A stretch of 64,000 nucleotides of DNA from the NCBI RefSeq assembly GCF_003002095.1, contig NZ_PVZC01000001.1, positions 1-64,000 on the forward strand, written 5' to 3'. Source of the stretch: Allonocardiopsis opalescens (GTDB lineage: Bacteria; Actinomycetota; Actinomycetes; Streptosporangiales; Streptosporangiaceae). Below, one piece after another: positions 14,136-58,738 of this stretch. Position numbers and translations under genes: made by a program. Within the stretch, counting starts at the first letter, position 1. Every line of letters starts with the position of its first letter. The notes beneath the pieces were generated by a model. It saw only the letters and a program-made list of their open reading frames with translations. It was not told the origin of the DNA and did no database searches.

Positions 14136-14231
14136 AGAAGCCCGCCGCACCGAGAGTTCTTCCGCACGTCACCACCGGTTCGCCGACCGCGCCCCGCAAT
14201 GGTCTGGACCACGCTCGCTAAGGTGATCGGT

Positions 14232-16925
<2,694 letters not shown>

Positions 16926-34640: not shown

Positions 34641-36119
34641 CTAGGCACAGACGTTATCTGTGGCCGTGGCGGCTTGGATACCTCCCGAACCGGCCGAATC
34701 CGGCGCCGCCGCCTCGACCGCCCGGACCCCCTGGTAGTCGGGGCCGAGTACCACCTCGACGCCGTCGCCCAGCTCGCCGGCCCGCTCCAGCCGCGAGCCG
34801 GGCAGCGCGGCCGCCACCGTGCGCGCGGAGTCGGCCCGGTGCGCGGCGTGGCGCACCACGGTCTGCTCGACGGTGCCGCCCACCCAGTTGTCGGCCGGCA
34901 CCGGCACGTTGAACCCGGCCGCGCGCAGCTCCTCGTCGGCGCGGGCGCCCAGCCCCTGGATGCCGGCCCCGTTGCGCACCTGGACGGTGATGTCCGCGGG
35001 CGGCACGATCAGCTCGGGCGCCGCCTGCGCCGGCTCCTCGGCCGCGCCGCCCGCCTGGGCGGCGGCCGGCGGCGAGGGCTCGGCCAGCGGCTCGTCCCTG
35101 GAGATCCGCCCGAACAGCTCGCGGGCCGCCTCGGTGTCCCACAGCACCGCCGACTCGCCGGTAGGGGCGGTGAAGTCGGTCTGGGCGGCCGGGACGGTGG
35201 TGAAGGTGACGTCGTCCATGGAGACCGAGCGCAGCTGGTTGCCCAGTTCGAGCAGGGCGCCGCCGGTCAGGCCATCGTCCACCGTCACGGTCTGCAGGAC
35301 GGTCTCGCTGAAGGCGGTGAAGCGGGCCGGGTCGCTCAGGGTGCGGGTGTCGGTGGCCGCCTCCAGCAGCGCGGAGATGAAGCGCTGCTGCCGGTCGATG
35401 CGGTCGAGGTCGCCGCCCGCGGTGCTGCGGGTGCGCACGTAGGCCAGCGCGCCCGCGCCGTCGACCACATGGGTGCCGGCCGGCAGCTGGAGGCCGGACC
35501 TGGGGTCGGAGATCGGCTCGGGCAGGCAGATCCGCACCCCGCCGAGCGCGTCCACGACCCGCAGGAAGCCGAGGAAGTTCACCTCCGCGTAGTGGTCGAT
35601 GCGCACGCCGGTGGCCCGCTCGACGGTCTGCACCGCCAGCTGCGGGCCGCCGAAGGAGTAGGCGGCGTTGATCTTGGCGGGGCCGTGTCCGGGGATGGTG
35701 ACCCACGAGTCGCGCGGCAGCGCCACCACGCTGATCGCGTCGCGCTCGCGGTTGAGGTGCACCAGCATCATCGTGTCGGTGCGCGCGCCGCCCTCGTCGC
35801 GGCCGAGGTTGAGCCGGTCCAGCTCCTCGCGGGTCAGCCCGGAGCGGTCGTCGGCGCCCACCAGCAGGAAGGTCAGCGCGCCGCGCGGGCCGTCCTCAGG
35901 GCGGTCGCCCAGCGCGCCGAAGGGGTCGATGCGGTCCAGCCGCCCCGACGCCCAGCCGGTGAAGGCCCAGGCACCGCCCGAGGCCAGCAGCACCAGCGCC
36001 GACATCACGGCGGCGGTCGTCAGCAGCATTCGCCGCCGGTACGCCTGCCGAGCCGGTACGATCCAGCGTGAACCGCCACGGGACCGGTTCGGGGCGGCGC
36101 CGGAGCGGGGTTCGCTCAT
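34641..36119 (-). CDS. LytR-CpsA-Psr (LCP) family ligase with LytR C-terminal domain
   Basis: LCP proteins transfer lipid-linked glycopolymers to peptidoglycan outside the membrane. Here a basic cytoplasmic N-terminus and one membrane helix (MLLTTAAVMSALVLLASGGA) precede the LCP domain: LTFLLVGADDRSG, MMLVHLNRERDAISVVALPRD, PAKINAAYSFGGPQLAVQTV and AYVRTRSTAGGDLDRIDRQQ with the lipid-phosphate Arg residues. A second LytR_C domain (ITVQVRNGAGIQGLGARADE) follows. Start MSEPRSG at 36119 gives 492 residues; a GTG 12 bases earlier is possible. A second LCP protein is encoded at 57 kb. Confidence 0.93.
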   Translation of the reverse strand: MSEPRSGAAPNRSRGGSRWIVPARQAYRRRMLLTTAAVMSALVLLASGGAWAFTGWASGRLDRIDPFGALGDRPEDGPRGALTFLLVGADDRSGLTREELDRLNLGRDEGGARTDTMMLVHLNRERDAISVVALPRDSWVTIPGHGPAKINAAYSFGGPQLAVQTVERATGVRIDHYAEVNFLGFLRVVDALGGVRICLPEPISDPRSGLQLPAGTHVVDGAGALAYVRTRSTAGGDLDRIDRQQRFISALLEAATDTRTLSDPARFTAFSETVLQTVTVDDGLTGGALLELGNQLRSVSMDDVTFTTVPAAQTDFTAPTGESAVLWDTEAARELFGRISRDEPLAEPSPPAAAQAGGAAEEPAQAAPELIVPPADITVQVRNGAGIQGLGARADEELRAAGFNVPVPADNWVGGTVEQTVVRHAAHRADSARTVAAALPGSRLERAGELGDGVEVVLGPDYQGVRAVEAAAPDSAGSGGIQAATATDNVCA

Positions 36120-36269
36120 CTGTGTGGTCACCCCCCGCGGAGCCCTGCGTCACTTGTCCTGAGCTGTCCGTAGGGTAGCGCGGCGCCCCCGCGCGGCCCC
36201 GTCATGGCGGGCGGCCCGCGCGTGGCGCGCGGCCCTCGGACGCCGCCACGCGCGAGAGAGACGGGACGG

Positions 36270-37385
36270 ATGGCTGTGGACGGTCAGGACCCCGGCGCCG
36301 GTTCGCACGACCGGACGCGGCAGTGGCCGCCGGTCTCGGTGATCATGCCGGTGCTCAACGAGGAGGCCCACCTCGCCGCCGCGGTCGGCCGCGTGCTGGC
36401 GCAGGACTACCCCGGCGAGCTGGAAATCGTGCTGGCGGTCGGCCCCTCGCGCGACCGCACCGAGCGGCTCGCGGCCGAACTGGCGGCGGACGACCCCCGG
36501 GTGCGGGTGGTGCCCAACCCCTCGGGCCGCACCCCCGCCGCGCTGAACGCCGCCATCGGCGCCTCCTCCCACCCCGTGGTGGCCCGCGTCGACGGCCACG
36601 CGCTGATGCCCGCCGACTACCTGCGGGTGGCCGTGCGCACCCTGCGCGAGACCGGCGCCGACAACGTCGGCGGGATCATGGCGGCCGAGGGCGTCACCCC
36701 CTTCCAGCAGGCGGTGGCCCGGGCGATGACCTCGCCGGTCGGGGTCGGCAGCGCCCGCTTCCACACCGGCGGCGAGCCCGGCGCCGTCGACACCGTCTAC
36801 CTGGGGGTCTTCCGCCGGGCCGCGCTCGAACGCGTCGGCGGCTACGACGAGGCCTTCCTGCGCGCCCAGGACTGGGAGATGAACCACCGCATCCGGGCCG
36901 GCGGCGGCACCGTGTGGTTCCAGCCGAAGATGCGCGTCACCTACCGGCCGCGGCCCACCGTGCGGGCGCTGGCCCGCCAGTACTTCCACTACGGCCGCTG
37001 GCGGCGGGTGGTGGCCCGCCAGCACAAGGGCACCATCAACCCGCGCTACCTGGCGCCGCCGCTGCTGGTCCTCGCGCTGCTGGCCGGCACGCTGGCCGGA
37101 GCGGCCGGGCTGGCGGCCGGCTGGTGGCCGGCGCTGCTGGGCTTCGCGGCGCCCGCCGGCTACCTGCTCGCGGTACTGGCCGCCTCGGCCGCCGTCGGCC
37201 GGGGCCTGAAGGGCACGGCCCGGCTGTGGCTGCCGGTGGCCGTCGTCACCATGCACCTGTCCTGGGGCACCGGCTTCCTGACCAGCCCGCCCGGCCTGGG
37301 CGCCGACTCCCGCATCGCCAGGGGCGCGGCGGGCGGCGGCACCGACCAGGCCGGCACGGGCCGCGCCAACGCGGCCAGCGCCTGA
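36270..37385 (+). CDS. Family 2 glycosyltransferase, ExoA-like
   Basis: The 371-residue protein has a GT2 domain (VSVIMPVLNEEAHLAAAVGR, VVPNPSGRTPAALNAAIGAS, ARVDGHALMPADYLRVAV) with the DxH in place of DxD, as in the succinoglycan ExoA group. Acceptor-site FLRAQDWEMNHRIRAGGGTV follows. Three membrane helices end the protein (LLVLALLAGTLAGAAGLAAG and two more). It probably adds a sugar to a lipid-linked chain at the inner membrane face. The ATG at 36270 is chosen over an upstream Arg-rich extension. It lies divergent from the LCP gene. Confidence 0.88.
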   Translation: MAVDGQDPGAGSHDRTRQWPPVSVIMPVLNEEAHLAAAVGRVLAQDYPGELEIVLAVGPSRDRTERLAAELAADDPRVRVVPNPSGRTPAALNAAIGASSHPVVARVDGHALMPADYLRVAVRTLRETGADNVGGIMAAEGVTPFQQAVARAMTSPVGVGSARFHTGGEPGAVDTVYLGVFRRAALERVGGYDEAFLRAQDWEMNHRIRAGGGTVWFQPKMRVTYRPRPTVRALARQYFHYGRWRRVVARQHKGTINPRYLAPPLLVLALLAGTLAGAAGLAAGWWPALLGFAAPAGYLLAVLAASAAVGRGLKGTARLWLPVAVVTMHLSWGTGFLTSPPGLGADSRIARGAAGGGTDQAGTGRANAASA

Positions 37386-37392
37386 GGCGCCC

Positions 37393-38133
37393 TCAGCCGA
37401 TCCGGCCGCGCAGCAGCGCCTCGGCGACCGCCAGGTCGCCCGGGGTGGTGATCTTGAGATTGCTCTCGCTGCCCGGCACGACGTGCACGCCGACCTCGGG
37501 CAGGTAGCGCAGCACCACACCGCAGTCGTCGGTAGCCAGCAGCCCGGGATCGGCCATCGCCAGCCGGTAGGCCCGCTGCACGGTGGTGAGGTGGAAGCCC
37601 TGCGGGGTCTGCACCCGGCGCAGCCGGGAGCGGTCGGGCACCTGGGTGATCACCTCGCCGTCGTCGTCGGCGCGCACCTCGATGACCGTGTCGGTGGAGG
37701 GGACCGCCACCCCGACGGCGCGGTGCCGCCGCAGCGCCGCCACGCACCGGTCGATGGTGGCGGTGTCGACCAGCGGCCGCACGGCGTCGTGCAGCAGCAC
37801 GTTCACCCGCTCCGGCGGGATGCCGGCCGACTTGGCGACGTCGGCGGCGGCGGTGATCGCCAGCCACGAGGTGCGGGTGCGGTCGGTGCCCCCGGCCAGC
37901 ACCCGGCGCACCTTGGTGTAGCGGGCCGCGATCCGCTCCGCCTCGGTGAGGTGGTCGCCGACCATCAGCACCACCACGTCGTCGACGGCCTCGGCCTGGT
38001 CGAAGGCTGCCACGCTGTGCTCGATGATCGGCCGTCCGGCCAGTTCGAGCAGCTGCTTGGGCCGGTGGTGGCCCATCCGGGCCCCGACACCCCCGGCCAG
38101 CACGGCAGCGATCGTGCGGCGGCTCTCGGTCAC
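37393..38133 (-). CDS. IspD/TarI-family cytidylyltransferase
   Basis: This family attaches CMP to a phosphorylated polyol: IspD to methylerythritol phosphate (isoprenoids), TarI to ribitol phosphate (teichoic acid). The 246-residue protein has AAVLAGGVGARMGHHRPKQL, NVLLHDAVRPLVDTATIDRC and RLRRVQTPQGFHLTTVQRAY. Motifs alone do not separate the two. IspD genes normally lie next to ispF or carD, absent here, while TagGH-type exporter genes start 426 bases away, so I favour a teichoic acid role. The start is GTG at 38133 with AAGGGG upstream. The gene ends 7 bases from the convergent glycosyltransferase gene. Confidence 0.88.
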   Translation of the reverse strand: MTESRRTIAAVLAGGVGARMGHHRPKQLLELAGRPIIEHSVAAFDQAEAVDDVVVLMVGDHLTEAERIAARYTKVRRVLAGGTDRTRTSWLAITAAADVAKSAGIPPERVNVLLHDAVRPLVDTATIDRCVAALRRHRAVGVAVPSTDTVIEVRADDDGEVITQVPDRSRLRRVQTPQGFHLTTVQRAYRLAMADPGLLATDDCGVVLRYLPEVGVHVVPGSESNLKITTPGDLAVAEALLRGRIG

Positions 38134-38559
38134 GCGTCGCCCCTTCACGTCGTCGTCAGCCCGCACGCGCCGCGCGGGCGGGCGCGTCCGCAGGCGTTCG
38201 GACGGCGTATCGGCAGCGTAACGGCTCAGGGCGCCGGGCCGCGGCCGAACACGGCACCGTCTCGGACGCGGGAAAACGCGCGCAATGCGAACAAGGCGCC
38301 CGGCGGCGGCGTGCACAGGGGCGGTTTCGGATAACGAAAACCCCACTCACTGACGAACCGGGGCTAGCCGCTCGGGGTCCGCCGGTACAGTTAGGGGGCT
38401 CACGTAAGGGGCTCACGGACATCGGCGCGCGAGGACCCGGCCACCGGACTCGCGCCGCGTGCACCCGTCCCGCGCCCGGTGCGGCGCGCCGGCACGGCGC
38501 GACGGCATCCGATGAACGCGAACCCCACCCGCTCACAGCGCGTCCCATGGAGTGGCCCG
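38134..38559. other. Divergent promoter region between cytidylyltransferase and TagG-like gene
   Basis: This stretch of 426 bases has no convincing gene. It contains two direct repeats of GGGGCTCACG (38395-38404 and 38408-38417, 13 bases apart) preceded by a relatively AT-rich part (cggataacgaaaacccc at 38328-38344). It should hold promoters for both directions. An in-frame ATG at 38512 could extend the TagG-like protein by 16 residues. Confidence 0.5.
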
Positions 38560-39435
38560 GTGCCCCAGATCACGGCGTCATACGCGACATCGCAACCAAA
38601 GAAGGCGGCGGGGTCCAGGGCCTCCAGGACCATCGCCATCTGGCAGAGCCGCCAGGTGCTGAACCTGCTGGTCGGACGCGACCTCAAGGTGAAGTACCAG
38701 TCGTCGCTGCTCGGCTACGCGTGGTCGCTGCTGGAGCCGCTGGCGCTGGCCGGCATCTACTTCTTCGTCTTCGGGCTGATCTTCAACACCCGGGCGCTGC
38801 CCGAGGGGGTCGACGCCCCGGGCGGCTACATCCTCTACCTGATCGCCGGCATCCTGCCGTGGATGTGGTTCAGCACCGTGCTCAGCGACTCCACCCGCTC
38901 GCTGATGTCGCAGGCGAAGCTGATCACCACGATGAAGGTGCCGCGCGAGATCTTCCCGCTGGCCACCGTCTGCACCAAGGGCGTGGAGTACCTGCTCACC
39001 CTGCCGATCCTCGCCCTGTTCGCGCTCGGCTCCGGCGGGCAGTGGACGTGGAACCTGCTGTACCTCCCGCTCGCCGTCGTGCTCCAGTTCGTCTTCCTGC
39101 TGGGGGTGGCACTGCTGCTCTCCTCGATCACCGTGGTGCTGCGCGACGTGCAGCGGATCATGCGGATCGTCAGCCGGGTGCTGTTCTACGCCACCCCGCT
39201 GCTGTACCCCGCGCACATGCTGCTGGAATCCGACCGCTTCCCTGAGTGGTTCAAGGTGGTCTACGAGGCGAACCCGATCGTGGGCATCATCGAGCTGCAC
39301 CACGCCGTGTGGTTCCCGATGCTGGTGCCGCCGGGGCCGTACCTGGCGAGCACGGTCGTCGGGACCCTGCTGATCTTCGCCCTGGGCTGGTGGACCTTCC
39401 GCCGCCTCGAACCGGCCGTGTTGAAGGAGCTGTAA
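38560..39435 (+). CDS. ABC-2-type polysaccharide/teichoic acid export permease (TagG-like)
   Basis: From the GTG at 38560, which has GGAG 7 bases upstream, the protein is 291 residues. IAIWQSRQVLNLLVGRDLKV and KYQSSLLGYAWSLLEPLALA are the standard N-terminal motif of TagG/KpsM-type permeases. Six membrane helices follow and the end is GWWTFRRLEPAVLKEL. It would pair with the ATPase 4 bases downstream to export a lipid-linked glycopolymer. Confidence 0.92.
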   Translation: MPQITASYATSQPKKAAGSRASRTIAIWQSRQVLNLLVGRDLKVKYQSSLLGYAWSLLEPLALAGIYFFVFGLIFNTRALPEGVDAPGGYILYLIAGILPWMWFSTVLSDSTRSLMSQAKLITTMKVPREIFPLATVCTKGVEYLLTLPILALFALGSGGQWTWNLLYLPLAVVLQFVFLLGVALLLSSITVVLRDVQRIMRIVSRVLFYATPLLYPAHMLLESDRFPEWFKVVYEANPIVGIIELHHAVWFPMLVPPGPYLASTVVGTLLIFALGWWTFRRLEPAVLKEL

Positions 39436-39439
39436 GCAG

Positions 39440-40366
39440 ATGGCTGAGCCGATCATCCAGGCACGCGACATCGGCGTGAAGTTCGCCATCAACCGCCGGC
39501 GCAAGCTCTCCACCCGGGAGCTGTTCATCCACGGCTTCCGGCGCCAGCCCAAGGGCGAGTTCTGGGCGCTGCGCGACCTCTCCTTCGACATCGCCCCCGG
39601 CGACTGCGTGGGCATCATCGGCCGCAACGGCACCGGCAAGTCCACTCTGCTCAAGGTGATCGCGGGCGTGCTGATGCCCGACGAGGGCTCGGTCGCGGTG
39701 CACGGCCGGGTCGCGCCGCTGCTGGAGCTGCGGGCCGGCTTCTCCAACGACCTCACCGGCCGGGAGAACATCCGGCTGGTCGGCTCGCTGCACGGCATGA
39801 GCCAGCGCATGCTGGACGAGCGCTTCGACGAGATCGTGGAGTTCTCCGAGGTCGGCGATTTCATCGACACCCCCGTCAAGCACTACTCCAGCGGTATGCG
39901 GGTGCGGCTGGGCTTCGCGCTCATCTCGCAGCTGGAGCACCCGATCATGCTGGTGGACGAGGTGCTCGCGGTGGGCGACCGCGCCTTCAAGAAGAAGTGC
40001 TACGACGCCATCGAGAAGATGCTGGCGGGCGGGCGCACCATGGTGCTGGTGTCGCACAACGACTCCGACCTCAAGCGCTTCTGCAACCGGGGCCTGTACA
40101 TCAAGGCGGGCCGGATGGAGGTCGACGGCACCCTCAAGGAGGCGCTGGAGACCTACCACGCCGACTCCGACTCCGACACCAAGAAGGCCAAGGCCAAGGC
40201 GGCGGGCACCGCCCCGGCCAAGAAGGACGGCGAGGCCAAGGGGGCCGCGGCCGGGAACGGCGCGAAGCCGGCCGGCTCCGCCGCCAAGGAAGATGCCGCC
40301 AAGGACGGTGCCGCCGCGGATGACGCCGCCAAGGAGAAGGAGCGGGCCCAGGGCACCGCGGGCTGA
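39440..40366 (+). CDS. Polysaccharide/teichoic acid export ATPase (TagH-like) with Lys/Ala-rich tail
   Basis: The 308-residue ATPase shows the family feature FWALRDLSFDIAPGDCVGII, Walker A GRNGTGKSTLLKVIAGV, signature HYSSGMRVRLGFAL and Walker B IMLVDEVLAVGDRAF. After about residue 235 a tail of some 70 residues is rich in Lys, Ala, Asp and Glu (KKAKAKAAGTAPAKKDGEAK), unlike the carbohydrate-binding tails of Wzt proteins. It probably forms a helical or disordered extension. The gene follows the permease directly with AAGGAG as ribosome-binding site. Confidence 0.92.
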   Translation: MAEPIIQARDIGVKFAINRRRKLSTRELFIHGFRRQPKGEFWALRDLSFDIAPGDCVGIIGRNGTGKSTLLKVIAGVLMPDEGSVAVHGRVAPLLELRAGFSNDLTGRENIRLVGSLHGMSQRMLDERFDEIVEFSEVGDFIDTPVKHYSSGMRVRLGFALISQLEHPIMLVDEVLAVGDRAFKKKCYDAIEKMLAGGRTMVLVSHNDSDLKRFCNRGLYIKAGRMEVDGTLKEALETYHADSDSDTKKAKAKAAGTAPAKKDGEAKGAAAGNGAKPAGSAAKEDAAKDGAAADDAAKEKERAQGTAG

Positions 40367-40564: not shown

Positions 40565-42250
40565 ATGACTCTGGCGCTGGTGATCGCGACCACCGCCTCG
40601 GGCGGCGCGGCGCCCGGGGCGCCGAGCCCCGCCCCTCCGTCCGAACACGTGGCCGCCCGCGCGGCCGCCGCCGCACCGGTTTCCGCGCGCCCGTCGGCCG
40701 CCCCGGCGGCGCTGGCCGCCCGCCGGGCGCCCGCCCCCGCCGCCGAGCCCACCGCCGCGCTGCCGCTGCCGGCCGCACTCGCCATCGGCCGCGGCTGCGT
40801 CCCGGTGGCGCGCCCCGACGCGCCGCCGCGCGCCGCCGCCGGACTGACCCTGCTCGGCCGGCTCTGCGGCCAACTCGAAGCGCTCGACGTGCGCGACACC
40901 TTCGTCATCGTCCGGCCCGAGCAGGCCAAGCGCTTCCGCGCCTACTGCCACGACCTGGTGGAGTCGGCCGACCTCGCCGACGACCTGCGGGTGGTCGCCC
41001 GGCTGGCCCGCACCGCGGCCGAGCCCGTGGTGGTGCTCAACGGCGACCTGGTCGCGCACGCCGACGCGCTGGACCGGCTGGTGCGGCCCGGGGCCGGGCC
41101 CGAGCCCCGGTGCGCCGCGCTCACCGACCGCGGCCCGGCGGTGCCCGGCGCGCCGGTGCGCGGCGAGGCGGGCGCGATCACCGAGGCGGGCTCCGGCTAC
41201 CACCGGGTGGACCGCCCCACCGGCAGCTTCCGCGGCGCGCTGCGCGTCTCCGCCGAAGGGCTGGCGGCGCTGGCCGACGCGGCCGAGGAGCTGGCCGAGC
41301 GGCTGCGGCGCACCCCGTTCGGCGCCTCCCGGCCCGGCCCCCAGGACGCGCTCACCCCGCTGCGCCCCGGCCAGGCCAGGGGCGCCCGCGCCGACGACGC
41401 CGTCGCGCTGCTGCTGGCCGGCCTGGTCGGCGGCGCGGGCCGCGTCGCCGCCGTCGACGTCCAGGGCCTGCCCACCGCCCGGGTCACCGACGCCGCCGCG
41501 GCCCGCGAGATGGTGGAGCGGCTGGACGCCTGCGACGACGCGCGGATCCGGCTGGACCGCGCCGCGCCGCCCGACGGCTCGCCCGTCGCCGCGTACCTGC
41601 TGCCGTGGCTCGCCCGCCCGCTGACCCGCGCGGCGGCGCGCCGGCGGCTCAGCCCGCACCAACTGAGCTGGATCTCGCTGTGGACGGCCGGGCTGGCCGC
41701 CGCCTGGATCTCGGTCGGCGACCGCACCGGGCTGCTGGTGGGCGCCGCGCTGCTGTGCGCCGTCGCGGTACTCGACTGCACCGACGGGCGGCTGGCCCGC
41801 TACACCGGCCGCGACGACGCGCTGATGCGCTGGCTGGAGCCGCTGCTGGACGCGGCCAAGGAGGCGGTCGTACTGGCCGGTGTGGCGCTGGGCGCGGGCG
41901 GCCTGGCCGGCCCGGCCGCGGCCACGGCCTGGTCGCTGGCGGCCGCCGTCCTGGTGGTGCGCGGGCTGGCCGAGATGATCGCCTACTCGGCCCATTCGGC
42001 CCGGATGGCCGACCCGGGCCGCGCCCGGGCGCCGGCCCCGGCCTCGTGGGCGCTCGCGGGCGGCACGCCGGTGGTGCGGGCCGGGCGGGCGGTGCTCGCG
42101 GTGCTGTCCCTGCCGCGCACCGAGCGGCTGCTGCTGATCGCCGCCACGCTCGCCGTCTGGAACCCGTATGTGACCTTGGTCACTGTGCTCTGCTGGAGTC
42201 TGCTCGCGACCTCGGCCGGCCTCGCGGTGCGGCTGCGGCGCGCCGGATGA
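40565..42250 (+). CDS. Nucleotidyltransferase-like domain fused to CDP-alcohol phosphotransferase
   Basis: The 561-residue protein starts at ATG 40565 (GGAGG 6 bases upstream). Residues about 60-240 look like a degenerate nucleotidyltransferase (LTLLGRLCGQLEALDVRDTF, VVVLNGDLVAHADALDRLV). The second part is a membrane CDP-alcohol phosphotransferase: D404-C-T-D-G-R-L-A-R412, then E425 and D429. In the family pattern D-x2-D-G-x2-A-R-x8-G-x3-D-x3-D, the Gly is Met421 and the third Asp is Glu425. About six membrane helices follow. The same domain pair occurs in the CTP:inositol-phosphate enzymes that make di-inositol phosphate. Activity here is uncertain. Confidence 0.85.
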   Translation: MTLALVIATTASGGAAPGAPSPAPPSEHVAARAAAAAPVSARPSAAPAALAARRAPAPAAEPTAALPLPAALAIGRGCVPVARPDAPPRAAAGLTLLGRLCGQLEALDVRDTFVIVRPEQAKRFRAYCHDLVESADLADDLRVVARLARTAAEPVVVLNGDLVAHADALDRLVRPGAGPEPRCAALTDRGPAVPGAPVRGEAGAITEAGSGYHRVDRPTGSFRGALRVSAEGLAALADAAEELAERLRRTPFGASRPGPQDALTPLRPGQARGARADDAVALLLAGLVGGAGRVAAVDVQGLPTARVTDAAAAREMVERLDACDDARIRLDRAAPPDGSPVAAYLLPWLARPLTRAAARRRLSPHQLSWISLWTAGLAAAWISVGDRTGLLVGAALLCAVAVLDCTDGRLARYTGRDDALMRWLEPLLDAAKEAVVLAGVALGAGGLAGPAAATAWSLAAAVLVVRGLAEMIAYSAHSARMADPGRARAPAPASWALAGGTPVVRAGRAVLAVLSLPRTERLLLIAATLAVWNPYVTLVTVLCWSLLATSAGLAVRLRRAG

Positions 42251-42269
42251 CGGCGGGAGGACGACCCTG

Positions 42270-42860
42270 GTGACGGCCGGACCCGCGCTCGGGATCAGCG
42301 ACTTCCGCGACGACGGCTACGTCAGCGGCCGGCTCGGCCGGCTCACCGCCGGCCAGCTGCCGCCGCTGCTGCCCTGCCTGGCCGGCGCGCTGGTCACCGG
42401 GGTGCTCTCCGTCACCGGCTGGGTGGACCCCTCGGGCATGTCGATCGTCGGCTCGCTGCTGGCCCCGGTCGCGGCGCTGCTGCTGGCCGGGGTGGGCTCG
42501 CGCCATCCGCACGACGGGCGGCACGACTGGCTGGTGCCGCCGCTGCTGTGCGGCACGGAGTGCCTGTACCTGCTCGCGCTCGGCCTGGGCGGCGGGGTAC
42601 CGCCGCCGGTGGTGTTCCTGCTGCTGGCCGCGGTGGTCGCCCGCCACCTCGACGTGGTGCTGCGCGCCCGGCTCGGCCTGCGGCCGGCGCCGTGGGCGGC
42701 CGCCGCCGCGCTGGGGTGGGACGGGCGGATGCTGACGGTCGCCGTGCTCGGGTTGGCGGGCTGGCTGCCCTTCGCGTACGGTTCACTGGCCGGTTACCTT
42801 TGGTTCATGCTCGTCTGGGAAGCGACCACGAGCTGGCTGGCGACTCCGCGCACGGAGTGA
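42270..42860 (+). CDS. DUF5941-like integral membrane protein
   Basis: The 196-residue protein starts at GTG with GGGAGGA 7 bases upstream and begins GISDFRDDGYVSGRLGRLTA. Five or so membrane helices follow, with RHPHDGRHDWLVPPLLCGTE and RLGLRPAPWAAAAALGWDGR between them and WEATTSWLATP at the end. It resembles the DUF5941 region that in streptomycetes is joined to a CDP-alcohol phosphotransferase; here it is a separate gene 19 bases downstream of one. It may be an accessory subunit of that enzyme. Confidence 0.8.
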   Translation: MTAGPALGISDFRDDGYVSGRLGRLTAGQLPPLLPCLAGALVTGVLSVTGWVDPSGMSIVGSLLAPVAALLLAGVGSRHPHDGRHDWLVPPLLCGTECLYLLALGLGGGVPPPVVFLLLAAVVARHLDVVLRARLGLRPAPWAAAAALGWDGRMLTVAVLGLAGWLPFAYGSLAGYLWFMLVWEATTSWLATPRTE

Positions 42861-43002
42861 GCCGGCCGGAGCCCGCCCGGCGTCCTGAGGCGGGCGGAGC
42901 CCCGCCGGACACCGGCACCACGGCCCGACCGGCGACCCTAGCGCCGCGCCGAGCGTGCCCGCTTCCGCGCGCCGGCCCGATCACGAGGAGTTGAAGCAGG
43001 CC

Positions 43003-43734
43003 ATGCTCGGAATGGTGCTTGCGGCGGGAGCCGGCCGACGGCTGCGCCCCTATACCGACACGCTGCCCAAGGCGCTGGTGCCGGTGGACGGGGAGACCAC
43101 CATCCTGGACATCGCCCTGCGCAACCTGGCCGAGGTCGAGTTGACCGACGTCGTCATCGTCGTCGGCTACCGGGCCGAGGCCGTCCGCGAGCGCAAGGAG
43201 GCGCTGGAGCGCCGCTACGGCGTGCGCCTCACCCTCGTGCACAACGACAAGGCCGAGGAGTGGAACAACGCCTACTCCATGTGGCTGGCCCGCGAGTACT
43301 TCGCCGAGGGCCTGCTGATGGTCAACGGCGACACCGTGCACCCGGTCGGCGTCGAGCGCACCCTGCTGGGGGCGCGCGGACCGCAGCTGCTGCTGGCCGT
43401 CGACGACGTCAAGCCGCTGGCCGACGAGGAGATGAAGGTCGTCCTCGGCGACGACGGCTCGCTGGCGCGCATCACCAAGCTGATGGACCCGGCCACCGCG
43501 AACGGCGAGTACATCGGCGCGAGCCTGATCGAGCCCGAGGCCGCCACCGCGCTCGCCGACGCCCTGGAGGCCGTCTGGCGGCGCGACCCGAACCTCTACT
43601 ACGAAGACGGCTACCAGGAGCTGGTCGACCGGGGCGGCAAGATCGCGGTCGCGCCGATCGGCGCGGTCGACTGGGTCGAGGTCGACAACCACGACGACCT
43701 GCGGCGCGCCCGGGAGATCGCATGCCGCTACTAG
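43003..43734 (+). CDS. CTP-type sugar/polyol-phosphate nucleotidyltransferase
   Basis: The 243-residue protein has the Rossmann nucleotidyltransferase core MVLAAGAGRRLRPYTDTLPK, LVHNDKAEEWNNAYSMWLAR, LLMVNGDTVHPVGVERTLLG and the late VDWVEVDNHDDLRRAREIA. The NNAYSMWLA and VEVDNHDDL motifs are found in LicC-like and inositol-phosphate cytidylyltransferases. It likely makes a CDP-activated alcohol used by one of the neighbouring CDP-alcohol phosphotransferases. The ATG at 43003 is used; the upstream in-frame extension lacks support. The next gene overlaps by 13 bases. Confidence 0.87.
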   Translation: MLGMVLAAGAGRRLRPYTDTLPKALVPVDGETTILDIALRNLAEVELTDVVIVVGYRAEAVRERKEALERRYGVRLTLVHNDKAEEWNNAYSMWLAREYFAEGLLMVNGDTVHPVGVERTLLGARGPQLLLAVDDVKPLADEEMKVVLGDDGSLARITKLMDPATANGEYIGASLIEPEAATALADALEAVWRRDPNLYYEDGYQELVDRGGKIAVAPIGAVDWVEVDNHDDLRRAREIACRY

Positions 43735-44786
43735 CCCGCATGGTGACCGCGCCGCTCGCCATCGACGTGCGCAGGGGCGCCATCGCGGACCTCGGCACCG
43801 TGCTCGCGGACCGCAGGATCGCCACCGAGGGCCGGATCGCGATCGCGGTCGGCCCCGGCCAGGGCGAGCGGATCGTGGCCGACCTGGACCTGCCCAAGTG
43901 CGAGGTGTTCAAGGTCGCCGACGGCCGCGTCGACACCGCCGACGAGCTGGGCCGTGCGCTGCGTTCCGGCTCCTTCGAGGCGGTGGCCGGCATCGGCGGC
44001 GGCAAGACCATCGACGTGACGAAGTACGCCGCGTCCATGGCCGGCATCCCGATGGTCGCGGTGGCCACCAACCTCTCCCACGACGGCATCGCCTCCCCGG
44101 TCAGCTCACTGGAGCACGAGAGCGGGAAGGGCTCCTACGGCGTCACCATGCCGATCGCCGTCGTCGTCGACACCGACTACGTGCGATCGGCCCCGCAGCG
44201 GCTGGTCCGCTCCGGCGTGGGCGACGCCGTGAGCAACCTGTCGGCCATCGCCGACTGGGAGCTGGCCGGGCGCGAGAACGGCGAGCCCGTCGACGGCATG
44301 GCCGTCACCCTCGCCCGGGTGGCCGCCGAGGCGGTGCTGCACCGCCCCGACGGCGTCGGCTCCGAGCCCTTCCTGACCGCGCTGGCCGAGGCGCTGGTGC
44401 TGTCGGGCATGGCCATGTCCGTCGCCGGCTCCAGCCGCCCGTGCAGCGGCTCCTGCCACGAGCTGCTGCACGCCGTCGACCAGCTGTTCCCGGGCACCAG
44501 CAACCACGGCGAGCTGGCCGGCATCGGCGCCCTGTTCAGCTTCCACCTGCGCGCGGAGTACCTCGGCGAGGCCGGGCGGCTCGAGGAGATCCGCGCCTGC
44601 CTGATCCGGCACGAGCTGCCGCTGCTCCCGGGCGACGTCGGCCTGGACGACGAGAGCTTCGCCGCGGCCGTGCGCTTCGCCCCCGAGACCCGCCCGGGCC
44701 GGTACACGGTCCTCGAACACTTGAACCTGTCCGAATCCGACATCGAGCGCAGCGTGGCGAGCTATGTCAAGAATCTCGGTCGCTGA
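43722..44786 (+). CDS. Glycerol-1-phosphate dehydrogenase-like (iron/zinc alcohol dehydrogenase family)
   Basis: The 354-residue protein belongs to the EgsA/AraM group, which reduces dihydroxyacetone phosphate to sn-glycerol 1-phosphate, the backbone stereoisomer of archaeal lipids. NAD-binding GIGGGKTIDVTKYAA and LSHDGIASPVSSLE are present, and Asp168 (GVGDAVSN), His246 (GSCHELLHA) and His262 (SNHGELAGI) fit the metal ligands. It overlaps both neighbours, a nucleotidyltransferase and a CDP-alcohol phosphotransferase, so its product alcohol phosphate is likely CDP-activated and transferred. The exact substrate is inferred. Confidence 0.88.
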   Translation: MPLLARMVTAPLAIDVRRGAIADLGTVLADRRIATEGRIAIAVGPGQGERIVADLDLPKCEVFKVADGRVDTADELGRALRSGSFEAVAGIGGGKTIDVTKYAASMAGIPMVAVATNLSHDGIASPVSSLEHESGKGSYGVTMPIAVVVDTDYVRSAPQRLVRSGVGDAVSNLSAIADWELAGRENGEPVDGMAVTLARVAAEAVLHRPDGVGSEPFLTALAEALVLSGMAMSVAGSSRPCSGSCHELLHAVDQLFPGTSNHGELAGIGALFSFHLRAEYLGEAGRLEEIRACLIRHELPLLPGDVGLDDESFAAAVRFAPETRPGRYTVLEHLNLSESDIERSVASYVKNLGR

Positions 44787-45534
44787 GGTCCGCGCCAAGG
44801 GGCAGCCGCCCGGGCTGACCAGCAGGACCAACGAGGAGCACTGGGCCGGGCGGCTGTACATGCGGGCGATCTCGCCCTACGTCAGCGCCGTTTTCATCCG
44901 CCTCGGCGTGCCGCCCAACCCGATCACCTTCCTGATGATGGGATGCGGGGTACTGGCCGGCGCGGTCGCCGCCTTCGGCGGCCTGTGGGCCGCCGTCGCC
45001 GCCGTGCTGGCCGTGCAGCTCTACCTGCTGCTGGACTGCTCCGACGGCGAGGTCGCCCGCTTCACCGGCCGCACCAGCGCGACCGGCGTGTTCCTGGACC
45101 GCATCGGCCACTACTTCGCCGAGATCGCGCTGCTGATCGGACTCGGCGTGCGGGCGCAGGGCGCCTGGGAGCCGGGCGGCTGGGTGGTCGCCGGCATGGC
45201 GGCGGCGCTCGGCGCGGCGCTGATCAAAGTGGAGACCGACAACGTCGTGGTGGCGCGGGCCAAGGCCGGACTCCCCGGCGAACCGCCCGACACCGCGCTG
45301 CGGCCGCGCTCCGGCGCGCTGAGCCGGCTCCGGTCGATCGCGTCGGCGGTCGGCCTGCACCGGATCATCGGCGCCGTGGAGCTGTCGCTGCTGCTGCTGG
45401 CCGCCGCGGTGGTCGACGCGGTCCGCGGCGACCTGCTCGCCACGCAGGCGCTGACCGCGCTGGTGCTCGCGGTGGCCGTACTCCAGACGGTGCTGCACCT
45501 GGTCGCGATCCTGGCCTCGCGCCGACTCGGCTGA
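44764..45534 (+). CDS. CDP-alcohol phosphatidyltransferase family protein
   Basis: The 256-residue membrane enzyme has D91-C-S-D94-G-E-V-A-R99, Gly108 and Asp112, but His116 replaces the last Asp of the family motif; the sequence GVFLDRIGHY is characteristic of an actinomycete subgroup. LGVPPNPITFLMMGCGVLAG is the typical entry helix. It would transfer an alcohol phosphate from its CDP derivative to a lipid or another polyol. The ATG lies inside the preceding gene (23-base overlap), so the three genes from 43003 form one coupled unit. Confidence 0.88.
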   Translation: MSRISVAEVRAKGQPPGLTSRTNEEHWAGRLYMRAISPYVSAVFIRLGVPPNPITFLMMGCGVLAGAVAAFGGLWAAVAAVLAVQLYLLLDCSDGEVARFTGRTSATGVFLDRIGHYFAEIALLIGLGVRAQGAWEPGGWVVAGMAAALGAALIKVETDNVVVARAKAGLPGEPPDTALRPRSGALSRLRSIASAVGLHRIIGAVELSLLLLAAAVVDAVRGDLLATQALTALVLAVAVLQTVLHLVAILASRRLG

Positions 45535-45665
45535 CGGCCGCGCTGCTAGGCGGAACCGCCCCCCAGAGTTAACCTGAACGGGAAATTGCCCGAACAGCAG
45601 GCGGCTATCATGTGGCCGTCGCGTTAAGAGTCGAGGTGATCGAGGTTCTCACCGGTGTACGTACG

Positions 45666-46523
45666 ATGAACGTCTCGTGCGTCGTGCTGACCATGGGGGA
45701 CCGGCCGGCGGAACTGGCCAGGGCCGTGCGCAGCGTCCTCGACCAGGAGGGCACCGACGTCGAGGTCGTGGTGGTGGGGAACGGCGCCGAGGTGCCCGAG
45801 CAGCCGGACGACGTGATCACCGTGCGGCTGCCGGAGAACGTCGGGATCCCCGCGGGACGCAACCAGGGCGTCAAGGCCGCCACCGGCGACGTGATCCTCT
45901 TCCTCGACGACGACGGCTGGTACCGCTCCCGCGAACTCGCCGCCTACGTCCGCGACCGTTTCGCCGCCGACCCCGGCCTCGGCGCCGTCTCCTTCCGCGT
46001 CGCCGACCCGCACGGCGGCCCCGACCAGCGCCGCCACGTGCCCAGACTCCGCGCCGGCGACCCCGAGCGCTCCAGCGAGGTCACCACCTTCCTCGGCGGC
46101 GCCTGCGCCATCAGGCGCGCCGCCTTCGAACAGGCCGGCGGCCTCCCCGAGGAGTTCTTCTACGCCCACGAGGAGAGCGACCTCGCCTGGCGCCTCCTGG
46201 ACGCCGGCTTCCGCATCGAGTACGACGCCGCCGCCGTCATGTACCACCCGGCCCTGCCCCCCACCCGCCACGCCGACTTCTACCGCCTCAACGCCCGCAA
46301 CCGCGTCTGGCTCGCCCGCCGCAACCTCCCCTGGCTCCTGGCCGTCCCGTACCTGGCCGTATGGACCCTCATCACCCTCGCCCGCGAACGCTCCGCCCCG
46401 TCCCTGCGCGCCTGGTTCGCCGGCTTCCGCGAAGGCTGGCGCACCTCCCCGGGGCCCCGCCGCCCGATCTCCTGGCGCACGGCCTGGCGGATGACGCGGT
46501 TGGGGCGTCCGCCGATCGTGTGA
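45666..46523 (+). CDS. Family 2 glycosyltransferase
   Basis: The 285-residue protein has a GT2 A-type fold with SCVVLTMGDRPAELARAVRS, NVGIPAGRNQGVKAATGDVI and metal-binding Asp residues in LFLDDDGWY. The acceptor region reads FFYAHEESDLAWRLLDAGFR. It resembles rhamnosyl or galactofuranosyl transferases. A hydrophobic segment near the C-terminus (LLAVPYLAVWTLITLA) may anchor it to the membrane. The ATG at 45666 is set by the fold start. It probably belongs to the same operon as the CDP-alcohol genes, after a gap of 131 bases. Confidence 0.88.
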   Translation: MNVSCVVLTMGDRPAELARAVRSVLDQEGTDVEVVVVGNGAEVPEQPDDVITVRLPENVGIPAGRNQGVKAATGDVILFLDDDGWYRSRELAAYVRDRFAADPGLGAVSFRVADPHGGPDQRRHVPRLRAGDPERSSEVTTFLGGACAIRRAAFEQAGGLPEEFFYAHEESDLAWRLLDAGFRIEYDAAAVMYHPALPPTRHADFYRLNARNRVWLARRNLPWLLAVPYLAVWTLITLARERSAPSLRAWFAGFREGWRTSPGPRRPISWRTAWRMTRLGRPPIV

Positions 46524-47212: not shown

Positions 47213-47448
47213 GCAGGCCAGATAGGGGAGACGTGGCAGACACGTTCACGGACGCCCTGCTGACCTCCGAAGAAACCGCGCGGCACCTGCGGATCCCGCC
47301 GTCCACGCGGTACGGCCGGCTGAGTGGTTCCTGGACCGCTGCGTCGGCAAGGGCGTCGCACAGTGCGAGCTGTCCCACTACCGTGCGGAAGTGCGGGTCT
47401 GGTGGGTGGGCGGGGTGGTTTCGGCGGCCCACTGCTCCAGTTGCTTGA
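47209..47448 (+). pseudogene. Degenerate excisionase-type helix-turn-helix fragment
   Basis: The frame starts ATG overlapping the Uma2 stop and reads MSRPDRGDVADTFTDALLTS then EETARHLRIPPSTRYGRLSG. This matches the first helices of MerR/excisionase-type HTH_17 proteins (LLTSEEAARYL-IPPSTLYxW pattern). After residue 40 the translation turns into Ser/Ala/Arg-rich text with no family likeness and runs into the end of the convergent glycosyltransferase gene. It is probably a truncated remnant, but a short real protein is not excluded. Confidence 0.4.
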
Positions 47449-48517
47449 CGAAGTGGCGGGCCTGGACGGGCCAGTGGTAGTTGGCGCGGGCGGTGCGGTA
47501 GCCGGTGTCGGCGAGGCGGAGGCGGAGGGCGGGGTCGTCGCGGAGGCGGAGGACGGCCTCGGTGGCGGCGGCGGGGTCCTCGAAGGGGACGACGATGCCG
47601 GACGGGGTGCGGGAGTCGTCGTCGGGGGCGACGATGCGGACGGCCGGGGGGTTGGGGGTGGTGATCACCGGGAGGCGGTGCGCCATGTACTCCAGGACCT
47701 TGGTGGGCAGGGAGTGGCGGTAGTTGGGGGCGTCGTGCAGGAGGCTGAGGCCGGCCAGGGAGCCTTCCAGCATGCGCAGGGCCTGGTCGTTGCCGACGAA
47801 GCCGTGCCAGCGGACCGAGCCGGCGCGGTGGGCGTCCTGGAGGGGGCCCTGGACGTCGGGGTCGGCGGAGCCGACGATGTCGACGGAGACGCCCTCGGGG
47901 GCCAGGCGGCGGCCCAGCTCGACCAGGTCCAGGGCACCGCGCACGCGGGAGAGGGCGCCCAGGTAGCTGACGCGGTCGGCGGCCGGGGCGGGCGGCGGGG
48001 TGTCGGGCACGTAGGTGGTGTTGGGCACCACCGGGTGGTGGCCGCCGAAGCGCTCGCGGTAGCCGTCCTCGGCGAGCAGCAGGTGCATGCGCTGCTCGGC
48101 CAGGCGCTCGGCGAGCCGCACCGGCACGGCCAGGGGTCTGCGCAGCCACGGCGGTACCCACGGCTTGGTGAGGATCGCGGCGGCGGTGTCCTCGTGGACG
48201 TCCCAGACCACCGGGGGGCGGTTGCGCCGCGGCGGCAGGGCGAGCAGCAGCTCGGGGTCGTGGAAGAGCAGCAGGTCGGCGTCGCGCACCGCGCGGGCGA
48301 GCAGCACCCGGGCCGCCCGCAGGGCCGTCAGCCGCCGCCGGCCGTGCGCCCGCGGCACGTCGATGGCGCGCAGCTCCGGCCACGGGGTGACCTGGCGGGC
48401 GCGGAACGGCGCCAGGTAGGTGATCTGGTGGCCCGCGTCGAGGAGCGCGCGGATCTGCCGGTGCAGGATCCGGGCGTCCTCAGGATGGTGGACCACCGTG
48501 GCGACGACGACATGCAT
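47378..48517 (-). CDS. Family 4-like glycosyltransferase
   Basis: The 379-residue GT-B protein has an N-terminal domain (MHVVVATVVHHPEDARILHR, LLLFHDPELLLAL, VWDVHEDTAAAIL) and a C-terminal sugar-nucleotide domain (VSYLGALSRVRGALDLVELG, VRWHGFVGNDQALRMLEGSL, SLPTKVLEYMAHRLPVITTP). The pattern fits GT4 enzymes acting on lipid-linked sugars in capsule or teichoic acid synthesis. It is 78 bases downstream of the UDP-ManNAc dehydrogenase gene on the same strand. Its C-terminus overlaps the HTH fragment on the other strand. Confidence 0.88.
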   Translation of the reverse strand: MHVVVATVVHHPEDARILHRQIRALLDAGHQITYLAPFRARQVTPWPELRAIDVPRAHGRRRLTALRAARVLLARAVRDADLLLFHDPELLLALPPRRNRPPVVWDVHEDTAAAILTKPWVPPWLRRPLAVPVRLAERLAEQRMHLLLAEDGYRERFGGHHPVVPNTTYVPDTPPPAPAADRVSYLGALSRVRGALDLVELGRRLAPEGVSVDIVGSADPDVQGPLQDAHRAGSVRWHGFVGNDQALRMLEGSLAGLSLLHDAPNYRHSLPTKVLEYMAHRLPVITTPNPPAVRIVAPDDDSRTPSGIVVPFEDPAAATEAVLRLRDDPALRLRLADTGYRTARANYHWPVQARHFVKQLEQWAAETTPPTHQTRTSAR

Positions 48518-48595: not shown

Positions 48596-49936
48596 CTACA
48601 GGACTTCGATCCCGGGACGCAGCTTCAGTTGGCCGCGCGGCTCGCCGGAGGTGGCCGGCGCGGCGCCGGCCGCGGCACGCGGCAGCACGCCGCGGGTGTC
48701 GAGCAGTAGAGCCACGCGCTCGTTCGTCAACACTTCCGGTGTATAGACGCGGTGGTCGGTCACCAGGATGGCAAGATCAGCCGTGGAAAGCGCCTCGTCC
48801 AGGTCGGTGATGCGCTCGACCGGCTCGTCGTCGACCATCCAGTCGGACACCATCGGGTCGTGGTAGGCCAGCCGGGCGCCCTTGCGCAGCAGCTTGCGGG
48901 CCAGCGGCCGGGCCGGCGACTCGCGCTGGTCGGCGATGTCGGCCTTGTAGGTGACGCCGAGCAGCACCACCCGGCTGCCGTTGAGCGAGCGGCCCGCGCC
49001 GTTGAGGAGGTCTTGGGCCCGCTGCGCCACGTAGGAGGGCATCCGGGCGTTCACCTCCTGGGCCAGCTCCACGAAGCGGAACGGGTAGCCCAGGGTGCGC
49101 ACCTTGTAGGAGAGGTAGTTGGGGTCGATCGGGATGCAGTGGCCGCCCACCCCGGGGCCGGGGTAGAACGCCTGGAAGCCGAAGGGCTTGGTGGCGGCCA
49201 GCGCGATGGAGTCCCACAGGTCGATGCCGAGCTCCTGGCAGAACACCGCCATCTCGTTGACGAGCGCGATGTTGACGTGCCGGTAGGTGTTCTCCAGCAG
49301 CTTGGCCATCTCGGCCTCGTGGGTGCCCCTGGCCCGCACCACGGTGTGCACGAAGCGGCCGTAGAAGGCGGCCGCCGCCTCGGTGCAGTCGGGCGTCATG
49401 CCGCCGACGACCTTCGGGGTGTTGGCCACACCGTAGGTGGGGTTGCCCGGGTCGATGCGCTCGGGCGAGAAGGCGAGGTTGAAGTCGAGGCCCGCGGTGA
49501 GCCCGGACTTCTCCAGCAGCGGCCGCAGCACCTCCTCGGTGGTGCCCGGGTAGGTGGTCGACTCCAGCACCACCAGGGTGCCGCGCACCAGGTGGGACGC
49601 GACCATCGTGCCGGCCGCGGTGACCGCGGTGAGGTCGGGCCCGCCCTCGGTGGACAGCGGGGTGGGCACGCAGATCACGATCGCGGCGGCCCGGCCCAGC
49701 ACGGCGGGGTCGGTGGTGGCGGTGAAGCCCGCGGCGAGCATGGCGGCGACGTCGTCGTCGGAGACGTCGTCGACATGCGAGACGCCGGACGACAGGCCGT
49801 TCACCACCCGCTCGCTGAGGTCCAGGCCGACCGTGCGCAGGCCCGCCCGGCTCGCCTCGCGGACCAGCGGAAGCCCGACGTACCCCAGGCCGATGACCAC
49901 CAGGTCGACCTCGGCGGAGTCAGTGCGAGAACTCAC
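48596..49936 (-). CDS. wecC: UDP-N-acetyl-D-mannosamine dehydrogenase (WecC-like)
   Basis: This is an NAD-dependent four-electron oxidation of UDP-ManNAc (or UDP-GlcNAc) to the uronic acid. The 446-residue protein has DLVVIGLGYVGLPLVREASR, VLESTTYPGTTEEVLRPLLE, AEMAKLLENTYRHVNIALVN, catalytic Cys in GPGVGGHCIPIDPNYLSY and GVTYKADIADQRESPARPLA. The VGGHCIPIDP form is that of the WecC/Cap5O group rather than UDP-glucose enzymes. The likely substrate donor, UDP-GlcNAc 2-epimerase, is encoded at 51.8 kb. GTG start with GAGGTGG 5 bases upstream. Confidence 0.93.
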   Translation of the reverse strand: MSSRTDSAEVDLVVIGLGYVGLPLVREASRAGLRTVGLDLSERVVNGLSSGVSHVDDVSDDDVAAMLAAGFTATTDPAVLGRAAAIVICVPTPLSTEGGPDLTAVTAAGTMVASHLVRGTLVVLESTTYPGTTEEVLRPLLEKSGLTAGLDFNLAFSPERIDPGNPTYGVANTPKVVGGMTPDCTEAAAAFYGRFVHTVVRARGTHEAEMAKLLENTYRHVNIALVNEMAVFCQELGIDLWDSIALAATKPFGFQAFYPGPGVGGHCIPIDPNYLSYKVRTLGYPFRFVELAQEVNARMPSYVAQRAQDLLNGAGRSLNGSRVVLLGVTYKADIADQRESPARPLARKLLRKGARLAYHDPMVSDWMVDDEPVERITDLDEALSTADLAILVTDHRVYTPEVLTNERVALLLDTRGVLPRAAAGAAPATSGEPRGQLKLRPGIEVL

Positions 49937-58710: not shown

Positions 58711-58738
58711 AGCGTTGACACTTCGCTCGGGACAGCGC

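Follow-up and report, generated by a model that had tools for sequence, protein, structure and literature searches.

A dehydrogenase-cytidylyltransferase pair that may supply CDP-sn-1-glycerol for a teichoic-acid-type polymer in Allonocardiopsis opalescens and other actinobacteria

What would a bacterium build with a dehydrogenase of the glycerol-1-phosphate type, a cytidylyltransferase and CDP-alcohol transferases encoded side by side? The question is raised by five genes in a stretch of 64,000 nucleotides from Allonocardiopsis opalescens (Actinomycetota; contig NZ_PVZC01000001.1, positions 1 to 64,000), hereafter the window. A first-pass annotation had named five genes there, with their families, as a possible phosphodiester polymer or lipid pathway; open reading frame listing, Pfam and profile searches place the same families at the same positions:

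40565 (ATG) to 42250 (TGA), plus strand: CDPOH1, a nucleotidyltransferase/CDP-alcohol transferase fusion, assigned by fold match and CDP-OH_P_transf
42270 (GTG) to 42860 (TGA), plus strand: DUF5941 protein (PF19365, 56 bits, cut-off 27)
43003 (ATG) to 43734 (TAG), plus strand: LicC-like (COG1213-type) cytidylyltransferase (NTP_transferase, 48.5 bits, cut-off 21.2)
43722 (ATG) to 44786 (TGA), plus strand: AraM/EgsA-type protein of the glycerol-1-phosphate dehydrogenase (G1PDH) family (Fe-ADH_2, 94.8 bits, cut-off 28)
44764 (ATG) to 45534 (TGA), plus strand: CDPOH2, with a CDP-alcohol phosphotransferase fold (CDP-OH_P_transf, 27.5 bits, cut-off 22)

The last three genes do overlap, as had been noted, by 13 bases (LicC-AraM) and 23 bases (AraM-CDPOH2), and the start at 43722 gives AraM the N-terminus MPLLARM, as in its homologues. 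Reduction, activation and transfer, the order proposed earlier for this trio, is a reading of the families that we share. We would go further, and give an even chance to the trio acting in a pathway of the wall-teichoic-acid type that begins with sn-glycerol-1-phosphate, where it would supply the monomer and transfer it at the membrane. Judging from its family and conserved residues, AraM would reduce dihydroxyacetone phosphate to sn-glycerol-1-phosphate; the LicC-like enzyme, a proposed glycerol-1-phosphate cytidylyltransferase, would then form CDP-sn-1-glycerol, taking the place that TagD, acting on glycerol-3-phosphate, has in Bacillus. The LicC-AraM pair would replace TagD as the source of activated monomer for a teichoic-acid-type polymer, which a TagF-type polymerase encoded elsewhere in the genome would extend, as co-occurrence suggests. 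By homology, TagG/TagH would export the product and LytR-CpsA-Psr (LCP) proteins attach it to peptidoglycan. The weakest step concerns CDPOH2, which, in some genomes together with CDPOH1-DUF5941, would use CDP-glycerol at the membrane, probably placing a starter or linking glycerol phosphate, while the family 2 glycosyltransferases GT2a and GT2b would add sugars. The glycerol phosphate of the polymer is predicted to be the mirror image of that in Bacillus wall teichoic acid.

The replacement of TagD is suggested above all by the distribution of the two supply routes among genomes with TagF. The same 296 actinobacterial genomes were searched for three proteins: AraM by alignment A2 (E<=1e-60, also 1e-20), TagF by PF04464 (E<=1e-30) and TagD by TIGR01518 (E<=1e-25). 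TagF was found in 20 genomes, TagD in 13 (8 of them over the curated cut-off) and AraM in 32 at E<=1e-60; at 1e-20 AraM rose to 52 genomes, the 20 additional ones having neither TagF nor TagD by these limits. The 20 TagF genomes divide into 12 with AraM and no TagD, five with TagD and no AraM, none with both and three with neither (one-sided Fisher 0.0036, a statistic that ignores kinship, as does the 2.2e-8 obtained for TagF with AraM across all 296 genomes). Those with AraM fall in five families (f1, f20, f25, f61 and f66) and those with TagD in four (f24, f38, f45 and f59). Two genomes with neither carry an IspD/TarI-like gene, as for ribitol: in G316 a second such gene directly follows TagF, and in G230 one lies about 12 kb from it. 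The TagD-bearing genome G110 also has an IspD/TarI-like gene near TagF.

Closer to the window, strong TagF matches occur in 12 of 21 relatives' genomes, all 12 with AraM (weak partial matches in G038 to G040, though over the cut-off, were not counted as TagF). No TagD over the cut-off was found in the 12 strong-TagF genomes of the window's family, nor any at E<=1e-25 in the nine TagF genomes of f20 and f25 (apparently Streptomyces and a relative). Across 60 relatives TIGR01518 exceeded its cut-off in none and gave weaker matches in 33, and AraM was strong in 39 and weak in one more. In A. opalescens itself TIGR01518 does not pass the cut-off (best E 1e-8), and TagF is a 1256-residue GT2-TagF protein (PF04464, 355 bits, over the cut-off). 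Physical linkage was seen in G177 (locus L160), of another class, where TagF (PF04464, E 1.9e-93) stands head-to-head with overlapping LicC-AraM genes. G260 has a CDPOH1-DUF5941 fusion (PF01066 plus DUF5941) beside TagF and TagGH at L230, and at L161 LicC-AraM followed by a different CDP-alcohol transferase with its motif intact; in G062 (L157) an intact-motif CDP-alcohol transferase lies between AraM and a WecG/TagA-family gene.

A third type of CDP-alcohol transferase (motif near DCxDGKxARLKGTG) was also seen, in tandem on contig C9 of A. opalescens (L150:6591-8853), and adjoining TagF or within about 2.3 kb of it in five other genomes (L176, L193-L196).

Is the dehydrogenase what its family implies? 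Its earlier assignment to the G1PDH family holds: the family model matches over nearly the full length, and the best solved relatives are G1PDHs (three of the best four are named so) together with 3ce9, labelled glycerol dehydrogenase. Residues D165, H243 and H259 (numbering of alignment A2, three lower than a count from the ATG at 43722) do not vary among the 14 orthologues compared and align to the solved G1PDHs; we take them to be the Asp, His, His metal ligands. We discarded H117 as a sign of a new substrate: the same SHDG occurs in the solved G1PDH 5fb3, presumably from Pyrobaculum, and the position is H or N among orthologues. For the LicC-like enzyme the closest solved structure is LicC itself (1jyk, 64 bits, E 1.3e-16, best of 14 matches).

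The transferases depart from the first-pass picture of two standard CDP-alcohol transferases. The predicted CDPOH2 model (mean pLDDT 86) has the CDP-alcohol phosphotransferase fold, closest to AF2299 (4q7c; Z 17.6, rmsd 3.4, 208 aligned), then to IPCT-DIPPS (Z 16.0) and PIP synthases (Z 14.5 to 15.3). Seven of the eight residues of the signature D1xxD2GxxAR...GxxxD3xxxD4 are kept, and the fourth Asp, D4, is His in the window copy. Of 102 distinct orthologues, 86 have His at D4 and 16 have Ala, and two more have His (L157, a CDPOH1-like paralogue, and the duplicates L031 = L051 and L033 = L052 being left out of the count). All 104 loci of the original motif comparison retain D1, D2, G1, Ala, Arg, G2 and D3, of which D1, D2, G1 and Arg belonged to the search pattern that every orthologue matches, and R165 and R200 are invariant in the 21 sequences of alignment A3. 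The control consisted of 52 distinct motif rows from outside the cluster, further members of the family in relatives and our own choice from the genome-wide list (52 loci): D4 is Asp in all 50 that have the G-D3 part, the other two being L144, which looks like a spurious frame, and the degenerate L197. The fourth Asp is the likely catalytic base (PMC4634129 and PMC6506517; these and the other papers given by PMC number are cited for parts of their text), and with Asn in its place a PIP synthase is almost inactive (PMC4634129). The same paper holds that a six-helix core lacking extra C-terminal helices suits soluble acceptors, and that AF2299 and DIPPS do not process lipids. A phosphate acceptor, we infer, would need no base. 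Undecaprenyl phosphate as that acceptor is disfavoured, since a lipid acceptor fits poorly with the six-helix core of CDPOH2 and with its similarity to AF2299 and DIPPS; for this reason we keep a phosphate acceptor only in the wider proposal of a mirror-image polymer, set out further below.

CDPOH1 is degenerate in this genome. It gave no Pfam match at E<=0.001 in the search of window proteins, and reached 24.8 bits for CDP-OH_P_transf, just above the cut-off of 22, in the genome-wide search. Among the structural matches to its predicted model (mean pLDDT 70) are the nucleotidyltransferases PntC (Z 19.1) and T. maritima IPCT (18.4); AF2299 and the Archaeoglobus IPCT-DIPPS fusion, which ranks first in Foldseek, match over both parts. 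By eye, the first domain shows no ordinary nucleotidyltransferase signature in ten aligned sequences. With Met at G2 and Glu at D3, the window copy has lost residues of the eight-residue signature. Seven of 104 CDPOH1 matches were dropped as cross-matches to CDPOH2; the 97 remaining loci comprise 61 with the full motif (two being weak paralogues), 32 without it and four with it altered. To the 32 belong the copies found in Nocardiopsis and Streptomonospora, where AraM and CDPOH2 stay conserved. CDPOH1 looks to be decaying in the window's family.

Several observations weigh against a TagD-replacing teichoic acid pathway. The E-value limits of the survey were set by us and differ for AraM, TagF and TagD, eight of the 12 genomes with TagF and AraM belong to one family, and TagF is missing at E<=1e-30 from 276 of the 296 genomes. 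AraM occurs without TagF in 20 of its 32 genomes (E<=1e-60), as also in G037, and G313 has TagF with neither AraM nor TagD. In A. opalescens, TagF lies on contig C1 (1581512-1582576), about 1.5 Mb from the window. Four genomes with AraM of the G177 type or related to it (L225-L228) have no TagF in the stretch examined, and G038 (L209, G038:C22) keeps CDPOH2, GT2b and TagGH although LicC is missing from the locus and AraM gave no match anywhere in the genome. AraM scores 241 bits against the NCBIfam G1PDH equivalog model (positions 7-342 of 350), under the curated cut-off of 413, and its dehydrogenase activity is therefore put forward only as probable. Finally, the Asp that is the likely catalytic base is absent from every one of the 104 distinct CDPOH2 orthologues.

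Could the trio serve another end? It may make CDP-sn-1-glycerol for CDPOH2 only, to form a glycerophosphate glycolipid or linker exported by TagGH, with TagF a separate matter. CDPOH2 and GT2b are nearly always adjacent to AraM and TagF usually is not, and the many AraM genomes without TagF fit as well, but the finding that none of the 20 TagF genomes has both AraM and TagD, and the linkage of TagF to LicC-AraM at L160, where no CDPOH2 was found, make this unlikely. AraM and the LicC-like enzyme might instead act on a different keto-phosphate, so that the phosphodiester polymer or lipid would contain some other polyol. Conservation of the presumed metal ligands and of the (N/H)DG motif, with SHDG also in 5fb3, renders that improbable, even granting the sub-threshold G1PDH score. 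The varied phosphates taken by COG1213 enzymes count in its favour too, CpgD giving no product with glycerol-1-phosphate (PMC12275187). That CDPOH2 is a catalytically dead scaffold, leaving LicC-AraM as the part that matters, we consider improbable to a somewhat greater degree: the loss of D4 throughout the orthologues and the effect of the Asp to Asn change in a PIP synthase (PMC4634129) point that way, whereas a scaffold is the less likely interpretation because the other signature residues are kept, as are R165 and R200.

Two further products are more remote from the evidence. Were CDPOH2 to work like DIPP synthase, joining CDP-glycerol to a soluble polyol phosphate, the outcome would be a compatible solute such as di-glycerol-phosphate or glycerophosphoinositol. 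The modelled fold has AF2299 and IPCT-DIPPS as its nearest neighbours, and the short six-helix core fits soluble acceptors (PMC4634129); with exporter, LCP and glycosyltransferase genes adjoining, a solute is nonetheless very improbable. Least credible is an archaeal-type ether lipid on glycerol-1-phosphate, as made by AraM with PcrB in Bacillus. Membership of the AraM family speaks for it, but PcrB exceeded its cut-off in none of the 21 genomes searched, against five of 14 controls, and that route has no place for LicC and CDPOH2. The earlier suggestion of a teichoic acid or a lipid with an unusual backbone is thereby narrowed: its archaeal-type lipid half is not supported, and the LCP and TagG/TagH neighbours, together with the presence of AraM or TagD but never both in TagF genomes, favour its teichoic acid half. 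We also dropped a phosphonate head group: PEP mutase was over the cut-off in 0 of 21 genomes (best E in A. opalescens 1.4e-6), which is weak evidence as the controls were 0 of 14 too, and the relative G008 came near with 279 bits against a cut-off of 319.55.

Returning to the TagD-replacing pathway, how far might it extend? We entertain, as a tentative and somewhat doubtful proposal, a mirror-image wall teichoic acid in many actinobacteria, with CDP-sn-1-glycerol from AraM and the LicC-like enzyme, a start by a transferase lacking its base (perhaps on a phosphate acceptor) and extension by TagF. If so, activated glycerol phosphate would be made by many actinobacteria, Streptomyces included, as the mirror image that is generally associated with archaea, and a CDP-alcohol transferase family would be working without its standard base. 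This would matter because CDP-sn-1-glycerol has been thought absent from bacteria (CDP-1-Gro is described as likely absent in PMC8262930). One Streptomyces has polyglycerolphosphate lipoteichoic and wall teichoic acids that are close to each other; tagB/tagF orthologues are mentioned for it without the data being shown, and a clear LtaS was not found. Lipoteichoic acid has been reported for both Streptomyces and Thermobifida (all PMC3196553). Yet TagD was found neither over the cut-off in the strong-TagF genomes of the window's family nor at E<=1e-25 in the TagF genomes of f20 and f25. Among the matches listed, no title or abstract in the openly licensed literature describes a bacterial CDP-sn-1-glycerol route, although such work may exist.

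The gene order is not due to chance, since other Streptosporangiales share it, as do genomes from further orders and classes. A scan of named genomes confirmed at least 588 stretches, of which the best 80, hence the closest loci, were compared; testable or full-length loci (65 full-length) are subsets of these. LicC adjoins AraM in 78 of 78 testable loci, CDPOH2 adjoins AraM in 77 of 80, and GT2b is at the AraM locus in 75 of 76. Full-length loci carry LCP (60/65), an IspD homologue (63/65), GT2a (63/65) and DUF5941 (62/65), with TagH in 20, TagG in 19 and a strong CDPOH1 in 38. The nearest named genomes by AraM identity, among the matches listed, are a Streptosporangiales metagenome-assembled genome and Nocardiopsaceae (Nocardiopsis, Streptomonospora). 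The same order was seen in f20, taken to be Streptomyces (L162, L163 and L166), and in other classes (L154, L156 and L228). The Streptomyces synteny of tagH, tagG, araM, a CDP-alcohol transferase and crtB is already published and its region associated with teichoic acid biosynthesis (PMC13118837), and a Streptomyces protein stands among bacterial G1PDHs in an earlier phylogeny (PMC5059525); a role in glycerol-1-phosphate supply was not found among the matches listed from the openly licensed literature. A literature look-up returned nothing on DUF5941 and nothing relevant for the gene names SCO6753-SCO6758. In a Streptomyces-like genome (L163:14362-19501), the genes after TagH resemble, by eye, those of hopanoid squalene synthesis. 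At L158:7718-9325, in another class, the neighbour of LicC-AraM is a gene for a type I phosphodiesterase (PF01663); CDP-glycerol may therefore be used by other enzymes too.

How does this arrangement compare with known systems? It shares TagG/TagH, LCP and, as proposed, a CDP-activated glycerol phosphate with Bacillus wall teichoic acid synthesis (TagD, TagB, TagF, TagGH, LCP), and TagF is in the genome, though away from the locus; unlike Bacillus, it has no TagD over the cut-off but a G1PDH-family protein and a LicC-like cytidylyltransferase, and it includes CDP-alcohol phosphotransferases. Archaeoglobus IPCT-DIPPS and AF2299 likewise combine a nucleotidyltransferase with a CDP-alcohol phosphotransferase and are among the best folds for both CDPOH proteins, whereas here LicC and CDPOH2 are encoded separately, on either side of a dehydrogenase, D4 is lost and the neighbourhood is that of a wall polymer. 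Bacillus subtilis AraM, which works with PcrB, belongs to the same bacterial G1PDH family; here PcrB is lacking and AraM is paired with a cytidylyltransferase. Caulobacter CpgD is also a COG1213 cytidylyltransferase acting on a three-carbon phosphate, but it yields CDP-glycerate and serves a sphingolipid pathway (PMC12275187). The Streptomyces tagH-tagG-araM-CDP-alcohol transferase cluster has the same kinds of genes, and the part of PMC13118837 available does not mention a mechanism, the replacement of TagD or the loss of D4.

The five genes sit inside a wall-glycopolymer island, given the LCP ligases, TagG/TagH, glycosyltransferases and UDP-sugar genes around them:

34641..36131, minus strand: LCP ligase with LytR_C domain (PF03816, 165.7 bits; PF13399, 65.1)
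36204..37385, plus strand: GT2a, family 2 glycosyltransferase (PF00535, 80 bits)
37393..38346, minus strand: IspD-family cytidylyltransferase (PF01128, 166 bits)
38479..39435, plus strand: TagG-like ABC-2 permease (PF01061, 43.6 bits)
39440..40366, plus strand: TagH-like ABC ATPase (NF010066 TagH, 173 bits, under the cut-off of 320)
45612..46523, plus strand: GT2b, family 2 glycosyltransferase, conserved beside CDPOH2 (PF00535, 65.9 bits)
47378..48517, minus strand: family 1 glycosyltransferase (PF13692, 46.4 bits)
48596..49936, minus strand: UDP-sugar dehydrogenase (PF03721, PF00984, PF03720)
51762..52916, plus strand: UDP-N-acetylglucosamine 2-epimerase (PF02350, 342.6 bits)
57181..58788, minus strand: second LCP ligase with LytR_C domain (PF03816, 144.9 bits)

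Like all four genomes of its family that were tested, A. opalescens has a single strong IspD homologue, encoded in this locus (here at 37393-38346); in f20 and f25 the genomes tested carry two or three. Because it is the sole strong copy, it is probably the enzyme of the methylerythritol phosphate (MEP) pathway, and a conserved neighbour rather than a demonstrated part of the wall-polymer pathway; we therefore rejected a ribitol route with this protein as a dedicated TarI. Elsewhere in the window, a tRNA-Pro (ggg) on the minus strand (15222-15297) lies inside the span of a plus-strand open reading frame (14199-16925) from a heuristic gene caller.

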